Shown piece by piece: positions 1-63,410 of a DNA stretch of 64,000 nt (position 1 is the first letter of the stretch; each line of letters starts with the position of its first letter). Made by a program: the position numbers and the translations under genes. The notes under the pieces were generated by a model. It had not been told where the DNA came from. It saw only the letters and a program-made list of their open reading frames with translations, and searched no databases. Origin of the DNA: Candidatus Woesearchaeota archaeon (GTDB taxonomy: Archaea; Nanobdellota; Nanobdellia; Woesearchaeales; JABMPP01); contig JAGVYD010000013.1 in assembly GCA_018303405.1 (NCBI GenBank), positions 1 through 64,000 on the forward strand, given 5' to 3'.

Positions 1-130
1 ATGTAAGGTCAAGGCACATAAGAACGCAGGCAGCTGAGCTGTTTTGTAGGCTGATAGCCTACAACATCGGCTATCGCCGATGGGATTTTCTACTAGGCCT
101 GTGGCTGGTGCATTCACCAAATTTTTTTTG
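1..130 (+). other. Hairpin-rich non-coding segment at the window edge
   Basis: No gene is visible. Three hairpins follow one another: an 8-bp stem with a 3-base loop (45-63), a 7-bp stem with a 4-base loop (65-82) and a 5-bp stem with a CATT loop (106-119). The last is followed at once by a run of eight T (122-129), as at the 3' end of a transcript. This may be the tail of an RNA or of a gene lying before the window; the sequence does not decide which. Confidence 0.35.
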
Positions 131-1571: not shown

Positions 1572-1736
1572 AGCTTAGTAGAAAAGTTTACGTTTTGCCA
1601 TCAATTCTGCGAGCATCTGGAAATAAGGCAGACAGCAGTTTTCAGAGTTCCATAGAGAAAACTGCCCTCGTGAATAAGATGCCCATGCGAGCCGATGGCA
1701 AAACCTGAGCCTTCAGGCGAAGTTTTCTGCTAAGCT
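1572..1736 (+). mobile_element. Mobile hairpin element, copy A (165 bp)
   Basis: Terminal inverted repeats at 1572-1585 and 1723-1736 (14 bp, one G-T pair) are abutted on both sides by the direct repeat TTCCTATA (1564-1571 and 1737-1744), which looks like a target-site duplication. Inside: an 11-bp stem 1592-1602/1694-1704, a helix with tandem G.A pairs (GCGAGCAT 1609-1616 with ATGCGAGC 1685-1692), a 9-bp hairpin with loop AGAGTTCCATAGA (1635-1665), and a small hairpin CCTGA-GCCT-TCAGG just after the 11-bp stem. Same architecture as the elements near 54616, 60291 and 63182. It has no ORF, so it would need an enzyme supplied in trans. Confidence 0.75.
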
Positions 1737-1750
1737 TTCCTATAGAAAAA

Positions 1751-1800
1751 TTTATATACTGGATTGAAATAAGTAAATGTTAATTTGTATGTTAATATAT
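1751..1800 (+). promoter_or_regulatory. Promoter region of the pilin genes
   Basis: Two TATA-like sequences are present: TTTATATA at 1751-1758, just past the end of element A, and TTAATATAT at 1792-1800. The second is better placed for a short leader carrying the GTGAGGGA ribosome-binding site just before the ATG at 1843. The first would give a leader of about 60 bases. Confidence 0.4.
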
Positions 1801-54600: not shown

Positions 54601-54615
54601 GTTTGTCGCTTTTTG

Positions 54616-54779
54616 GGCTGTGTTGAAAATATTTGTTTTGGCACCATTAATGCGAGCGTCCAATCCTAATTAATTAACAAGCAAAGGAGATTGCAAGAGG
54701 AATTTGCTTTATCATTGCACACCTAAACACGCGAGCCGGTGCCAAAACCGAGGCGAAAGCCGAGATTTTCAACACAGCT
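54616..54779 (+). mobile_element. Mobile hairpin element, copy B (164 bp)
   Basis: Inverted ends 54616-54630 and 54765-54779 (GGCTGTGTTGAAAAT and its complement, terminal G-T) are abutted exactly by GCTTTTTG (54608-54615 and 54780-54787). The inner 11-bp stem is GTTTTGGCACC/GGTGCCAAAAC (54635-54645/54738-54748). Next comes GCGAGCGT paired with ACGCGAGC through tandem G.A (54652-54659/54729-54736). The central hairpin is AAGCAAA/TTTGCTT with a different loop, so this copy lacks the GGTTCCAGA-like loop of A, C and D. The last small hairpin is GGC-GAAA-GCC. Confidence 0.75.
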
Positions 54780-54834
54780 GCTTTTTGCCTCAAAAAACAA
54801 AGCTTTATATATCAATCATTATTTTTATAACGAT

Positions 54835-60268: not shown

Positions 60269-60290
60269 TATAAAAGCTTAATCAGTTTTT

Positions 60291-60456
60291 CTTTGCGCAA
60301 AAAAGGCTGTTGTGCCGCCAATTATGCGAAGCTAATGTTTAGCGTTGTCATGCAATTTTCGAGGTTCCAGATAGAAAATTGCAATTAAAAATCTGCTTTC
60401 AAGCTGAGCCGGCGGCACAGCCGAAGCGATAGCTGAGTCTGAGTTTTTGCACAGAG
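60291..60456 (+). mobile_element. Mobile hairpin element, copy C (about 166 bp)
   Basis: End arms CTTTGCGCAAAAA (60291-60303) and TTTTTGCACAGAG (60444-60456), imperfect. No clear flanking direct repeat, so it is probably older. The inner stem is GTGCCGCC/GGCGGCAC (60312-60319/60411-60418) plus GCTG/CAGC. GCGAAGCT pairs with AGCTGAGC through tandem G.A. The central hairpin GCAATTTTC/GAAAATTGC encloses GAGGTTCCAGATA (60352-60382). The last hairpin is AGC-GATA-GCT. It lies upstream of tyw3, in the opposite orientation to both flanking genes. Confidence 0.65.
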
Positions 60457-63115: not shown

Positions 63116-63181
63116 TCATTTGCCAGCTCTTGATAGATAGGTACCGATGCATTGGAATTCTGTGCATCATCCCATCATTCA

Positions 63182-63344
63182 GGCTCTGTCCAGAGACTTG
63201 GTTTTGGCATCAATTTTGTGAGACTTATCAATTCTTACATAAGGCATTTTTCGCGGTTCCAGAGAGAAAAATGCAATTTCTTCCTGGAGTTGAAGGCGAA
63301 CAGATGCCAAAACTCGAGCCGAAGGCGAGATTCTGGACAGAGCC
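63182..63344 (+). mobile_element. Mobile hairpin element, copy D (163 bp)
   Basis: Perfect 13-bp inverted ends GGCTCTGTCCAGA (63182-63194) and complement (63332-63344), abutted exactly by CATCATTCA (63173-63181 and 63345-63353). The inner 11-bp stem is GTTTTGGCATC/GATGCCAAAAC (63201-63211/63303-63313). GTGAG/CGAAC-type pairing with tandem G.A follows. The central hairpin GCATTTTTC/GAAAAATGC encloses GCGGTTCCAGAGA (63244-63274). The last hairpin is GCC-GAA-GGC. Best-preserved copy. Confidence 0.8.
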
Positions 63345-63410
63345 CATCATTCATAAACATTTTTATAGTCACTTGCCTTTTGAACTCCTACGGAATCAGA
63401 GGAGCCAACA

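Follow-up and report, generated by a model that had tools for sequence, protein, structure and literature searches.

Miniature elements of uncultured Woesearchaeota share their ends with an IS903-like insertion sequence and lie at a fixed distance upstream of TATA boxes

Elements of about 164 bp with inverted ends and 9-bp target duplications were found at a fixed distance upstream of TATA boxes in genomes of Woesearchaeota, and their ends matched those of an IS5-family, IS903-like insertion sequence of 883-895 bp. The reading favoured here, to which a probability of roughly 85% is given, is that these elements are mobilised in trans by the IS903-like transposase, which is steered to promoters. 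The elements are miniature inverted-repeat transposable elements (MITEs) of uncultured Woesearchaeota without a transposase of their own: they are short, lack ORFs, carry terminal inverted repeats and target duplications, occur in many copies and have their ends in common with an autonomous element.

The window, that is, the whole stretch of 64,000 nucleotides that was analysed, holds four MITE copies and one end of the insertion sequence:

1..99: right end of an autonomous IS5-family insertion sequence, the contig beginning inside the element
85-99, - strand: end repeat of this insertion sequence
100..108: its target duplication TGTGGCTGG, repeated at the other end, on contig C17
1564..1571, no strand: left target duplication TTCCTATA of copy 1572
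1572..1736, + strand: MITE copy, AGCTTAGTAG subfamily
1737..1744, no strand: right target duplication TTCCTATA of copy 1572
1745..1759, + strand: BRE-like GAAAAA, then TATA box TTTATATA, outside copy 1572 (the first)
54608..54615, no strand: left target duplication GCTTTTTG of copy 54616
54616..54779, + strand: MITE copy, GGCTGTGTTGAAAAT subfamily
54780..54787, no strand: right target duplication GCTTTTTG of copy 54616
60289..60456, + strand: MITE copy, the most worn of the four
63173..63181, no strand: left 9-bp target duplication CATCATTCA of copy 63182
63182..63344, + strand: MITE copy, subfamily A, with end inverted repeats, structured core and 3' hairpin
63201-63211/63303-63313: P2 stem of copy 63182
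63345..63353, no strand: right 9-bp target duplication CATCATTCA of copy 63182
63354..63367, + strand: BRE-like TAAACA and TATA box TTTTTATA, adjoining the outer side of the right target duplication (from the sequence and the family-wide profile)

The initial annotation had described four elements at these places with a set order of parts, and both were confirmed in the sequence. The range that it gave for the last copy, 63173-63353, encloses the target duplication, the duplications themselves being left unstated. Exact direct repeats flank three of the four copies (1572, 54616 and 63182), and inspection of the flanks revealed none at the copy at 60289-60456. All four lie between recognisable genes. 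Elsewhere in the window, a 77% direct repeat (1846-2007 versus 2404-2565) stems from two neighbouring ORFs, the first of which gave no Pfam match, and a viral scan with the first window protein also returned no match.

The size of the family was established with covariance model R1, built from ten copies, which found about 55 distinct places in the 1.6-Mb woesearchaeal genome, nearly all of them full-length; with copy 63182 as the query, 58 matching pieces were obtained in its own assembly. The fetched loci were also scanned blindly for ends that match and are bordered by identical words, which yielded 80 end pairs with target duplications (a few being repeats of one element through overlapping loci), the duplications almost all 8-10 bp long with a clear mode at 9 bp. 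At one locus two members stand side by side and the word cgagaataa is present three times. Once reoriented and aligned, subfamilies GGCTCTGTCCAGAGA, GGCTTTGTCCGAAAAG, GGCTTAGTAGAAAAG, GGCGCTGTAGAAAAT and others were seen to have length, order of parts and fold in common. Copies of 219 bp also exist, in which about 55 added bases form an extra hairpin within the loop of the central hairpin, and two own-genome copies (L006:1501-1805 and L009:1501-1718) contain additional hairpin sequence within the element. Among 59 genomes, each from a different family, R1 detected full-length relatives in 15, the own genome counted among them, with up to 33 full-length copies in a single relative. A second model, R2, built from 54 diverse members, gave matches in 128 of 353 genomes of the host's order, representing 92 of 220 genera; draws made across the class and the phylum yielded just two matching genomes from other orders. 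Distant blastn searches found no family element in phages or plasmids, and one pattern match on a viral contig was set aside as chance, the covariance model lending it no support. The initial annotation had staked the family on such a search of the genome and its relatives, to be given up if further copies were lacking or their stems unpaired; copies were plentiful and, as described below, their stems kept pairing in 94% of cells. Its view of the elements as mobile, intergenic and ORF-less, with near-constant length and a conserved fold, is borne out by the copies, their duplications and the covariation.

The autonomous partner was located via paired end patterns. Complete insertion sequences were recovered at 883 bp (genome G045), 889 bp (locus L198; ends 15/15, duplication 9/9) and 895 bp (locus L196; duplication 9/9). 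The named genomes encoding its transposase belong to Ca. Woesearchaeota, together with one labelled Nanoarchaeota. From the own genome it is known only from contig ends and one relic: single end repeats occur near the ends of contigs C2, C7, C8, C11, C13 (window 85-99), C16 and C17, as they do many times in genome G024, and the assemblies probably break at these repeats because a long repeat begins there. C8 and C16 share the 9-bp duplication CAATGCTAA across one copy of the insertion sequence, and C17 and C13 share the 9-bp duplication TGTGGCTGG across another copy; this flank, at window 1-108, shows C17 of the same assembly to be the neighbour of the window contig. When eight genomes were searched with PF01609, the insertion sequence of the own genome escaped detection because contigs break within it.

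Like IS903B, which scored 356 bits on NCBIfam model NF033579, the L196 transposase lay above the cut-off of 140 (150.6 bits), that of locus L154 falling below it (120.4 bits); the partner transposase also matched DDE_Tnp_1 with 45 bits against a cut-off of 23. The partner thus combines an IS5-family DDE transposase with the 9-bp duplication and GGCTTTGTTGAA-type ends of the IS903 group, and, judged by its ends, duplication and NF033579, it is IS903-like and may belong to the IS903 clade. Ends, cut and enzyme family agree with IS903B, since the latter has such ends and a 9-bp duplication. That this transposase would also move the MITEs is suggested by the identity of their ends and by equal target duplications. 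The closest annotated relatives, IS5 elements on euryarchaeal plasmids (L290-L292), gave no resolved pair of ends and duplication.

The placement of the elements was assessed by scoring a TATA-like word at bases 12-19 outward from the element. Such a word was present about 15 bp outside one end in 97 of 121 copies (mode at the 16th base), on the left only in 46, on the right only in 41 and on both sides in 10, and was missing from this place in 24. Control windows of equal width contained it in 7-21 of the 121, and shuffled flanks in 15 on average. When the word list fixed on these copies was then applied to a separate set from other genomes, TATA was found in 34 of 38 (controls 2-7). Read outward, the duplication takes up bases 1-9; it is followed on one side by an A-rich, BRE-like stretch at bases 10-15 and by TTTAWATA at bases 16-23. 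ATG peaks at bases 46-48, matching expectation for leaderless archaeal genes. The orientation of the element relative to the promoter is random. In the window, copies 1572 and 63182 have a clear TATA at the expected spacing, and that of copy 54616 lies about 25 bp beyond the right end, off the usual place. This fixed position, the most striking feature of the family, had gone unnoticed, leaving the initial description incomplete.

The same spacing was observed for the insertion sequences themselves, on own-genome contigs C2, C7, C8 and C17 and in genomes G045 and G004, the latter copy being placed ahead of an apparent tRNA gene. With flanks paired through their duplications, all five G024 copies for which both flanks are known have TATA on the expected side. 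Furthermore, a 1.73-kb element with family ends (L141:1847-3578) keeps the same promoter distance. Because insertion sequences and this larger element obey it as well, the spacing rule is a property of the machinery of transposition, not of what lies inside the MITE. Such fixed spacing is the behaviour of promoter-targeted transposons of the TnGBS kind. The cargo of the 1.73-kb element is a nucleotidyltransferase (MntA-like) and HEPN gene pair, likely a toxin-antitoxin cargo.

Steering to promoters may or may not involve the transcription machinery. Slightly less than an even chance is given to the transposase simply reading DNA, through a preference for an asymmetric AT-rich sequence located 10-23 bp from the cut (AAA followed by TTTAWATA); promoters would then be hit merely for containing this sequence, with no role for a transcription factor. 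The preference is sharp at the level of single bases, so that the motif alone would suffice, and once the strict BRE+TATA motif is required, promoter context has little to add: leaderless starts follow 23 of 36 insertion sites and 45 of 100 background motifs (p = 0.08). With a looser TATA core, however, 52 of 78 insertion sites were followed at the appropriate spacing by a gene start, against 31% of background TATA cores (p = 5e-10), and the spacing resembles that of TnGBS at sigma-A promoters, where contact with a factor has been proposed (PMC3942029). The data are compatible with factor contact as well as with BRE/TATA DNA being read directly.

The MITE has five helices: P1, formed by the paired element ends; P2, a stem of 8-11 bp; P3, in which GC-GA-AGC faces GCT-GA-GC with tandem GA mismatches; P4, the central hairpin; and P5, a small hairpin GAGCnnnnGCGA. 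In a model-fitted alignment, which is biased towards the structure, pairing was kept in 94.0% of cells, 40 of 42 pairs had changes on both sides, and 602 double changes were observed against 175 after shuffling; sliding the partners by one to three columns reduced pairing to 30-39%. RNAalifold, supplied with the first MAFFT alignment, recovered P1, P2 and P4 from all copies together, along with the pairs GC/GC and AGC/GCT within P3; for the two main subfamilies separately, it gave P1, P2 and P4 in one, and P1, P2 and a variant centre in the other. Tandem GA is present on both P3 strands in 44 of 54 members. A kink-turn reading of this motif was dropped when inspection by eye found the standard three-base bulge absent beside the GA pairs. 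Rfam gave no match for the window at gathering scores or for five copy-bearing loci at E up to 1, in keeping with the initial statement that no described family with this fold was known.

The P2-P4 core also occurs without family ends, at loci L251-L253, L255, L256 and L259, and inside a repeat of about 240 bp with other ends (GTATTAGGCT):

L251:1460-1573: solo core
L252:1484-1595: solo core
L253:1462-1573: solo core, TATA box upstream
L256:1473-1596: solo core
L259:1530-1653: solo core
L065:1501-1607: core inside the ~240-bp repeat
L079:1501-1606: core inside the ~240-bp repeat

One solo core sits between two close co-directional ORFs. In genome G130 (L243-L247, L260), nine equal-scoring cores adjoin a GGCTTCATCC end, and all nine are located where a contig terminates; the six that were read are identical, and this is a longer repeat with the core near one end. 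Because it occurs both without the family ends and inside another repeat, the core is either a separate module or an older layer.

These occurrences, solo and inside another repeat, together with the TATA box upstream of the L253 core, would be expected if the P2-P4 core were a dispersed functional or regulatory RNA riding in transposon ends, the solo cores being its working genes. Strong covariation, the tandem GA mismatches and loop motifs kept across the order point in the same direction, but the promoters beside MITE copies point outward, the orientation is random and an Rfam match is absent. Moreover, template switching can give hairpin DNA paired changes without selection. A standing GA mismatch in an otherwise changeable helix speaks against simple arm-correcting mutation being the sole cause. 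On balance, the RNA interpretation is considered unlikely.

Under mobilisation in trans with steering to promoters, an IS5-family DDE transposase would recognise the GGCTnTGTnnnAAAAT ends, act in trans on the MITEs and cut with a 9-bp stagger. It would be steered either by direct reading of BRE/TATA or by contact with bound TFB/TBP, the cut probably falling at about -45 to -37, immediately upstream of the BRE, so that promoter and gene stay whole; such gene-sparing placement would allow the elements to spread without breaking genes. The interior fold may, more tentatively, be selected as DNA or RNA structure, a DNA role (single-stranded folding, end synapsis) being somewhat likelier because orientation is random and the promoter points away. 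The fuller proposal, that the archaeal transposase targets via TFB/TBP and that the covarying core is a functional module captured by several transposons, is advanced with the odds against it.

Loose insertion followed by the persistence of promoter-sparing copies only is very improbable. Insertions into genes are costly in compact genomes and the window copies are all intergenic, but purifying selection cannot place copies of both orientations with a precision of about two bases and on a single side only, a spacing that recent, almost identical copies and complete insertion sequences show as well. The attribution of the ends to an IS6 or IS1595 style, made in the initial annotation on a loose resemblance (GGCTnTGT), is almost certainly wrong: both families duplicate 8 bp, with an IS6-family DDE or an ISXO2-like transposase respectively, whereas here 9 bp are duplicated, autonomous elements with these ends carry an IS5-family transposase, and models of IS6 or IS1595 gave no score.

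Taken singly, MITEs, IS5 elements and transposons targeted to promoters are all known. The literature searched contained neither their combination, an IS5-type element with MITEs at a fixed TATA distance and a core that covaries across the order, nor any archaeal or IS5-family case of promoter targeting; it included few subscription papers, and absence from it is weak evidence. In this family, the constant spacing between a DNA transposon and archaeal core promoters is clear and can be counted; its insertion sites could be used to locate the real promoters of uncultured archaea, and it may provide a gene-sparing insertion tool. It also allows a test of whether archaeal TBP/TFB act as landing marks in the way that the related factors do for Ty3, and a TFB/TBP-guided archaeal transposase, if true, would be a counterpart of Ty3 and TnGBS. 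The fold kept order-wide in a gene-less element is a separate puzzle from targeting.

Folding prokaryotic MITEs such as Correia and bcr1 (PMC10969869, PMC2267715) are likewise small, intergenic, multi-copy and ORF-less; unlike them, the present family keeps one multi-helix fold with tandem GA across an order, and its core recurs elsewhere. With IS903 of the IS5 family the partner has in common the 9-bp duplication (PMC9769513) and NF033579, and its ends are comparable (GGCTTTGTTGAATAAATC in IS903, GGCTCTGTTGAAAATC in the archaeal element); on plasmid Rts1, IS903B has ends GGCTTTGTTGAATAAATC and duplication GACACAACG. However, IS903B is 1057 bp long against 883-895 bp, the archaeal transposase is only distantly like it (34% over 92 residues), and the archaeal insertion sequence, unlike IS903, is placed upstream of TATA boxes. 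Ty3 is guided to RNA polymerase III genes with base-level precision by TBP and a TFIIB relative (PMC8632968), but it is a retrotransposon that integrates 2-3 bp ahead of the start site, and factor contact, proven there, is possible for the archaeal DNA transposon. Closest in behaviour are TnGBS, ISLre2 and ISKra4, which insert 15-17 bp upstream of the sigma-A -35 box (PMC3942029), likewise a fixed distance upstream of a promoter element. Those elements use Mutator-like transposases at bacterial sigma promoters, mostly in one orientation, whereas the partner described here has an IS5-type transposase in place of a Mutator-like one with a targeting motif, lies at TATA boxes and is randomly oriented; because its transposase belongs to the IS5 family, the archaeal family is TnGBS-like in behaviour and not a member of that group.
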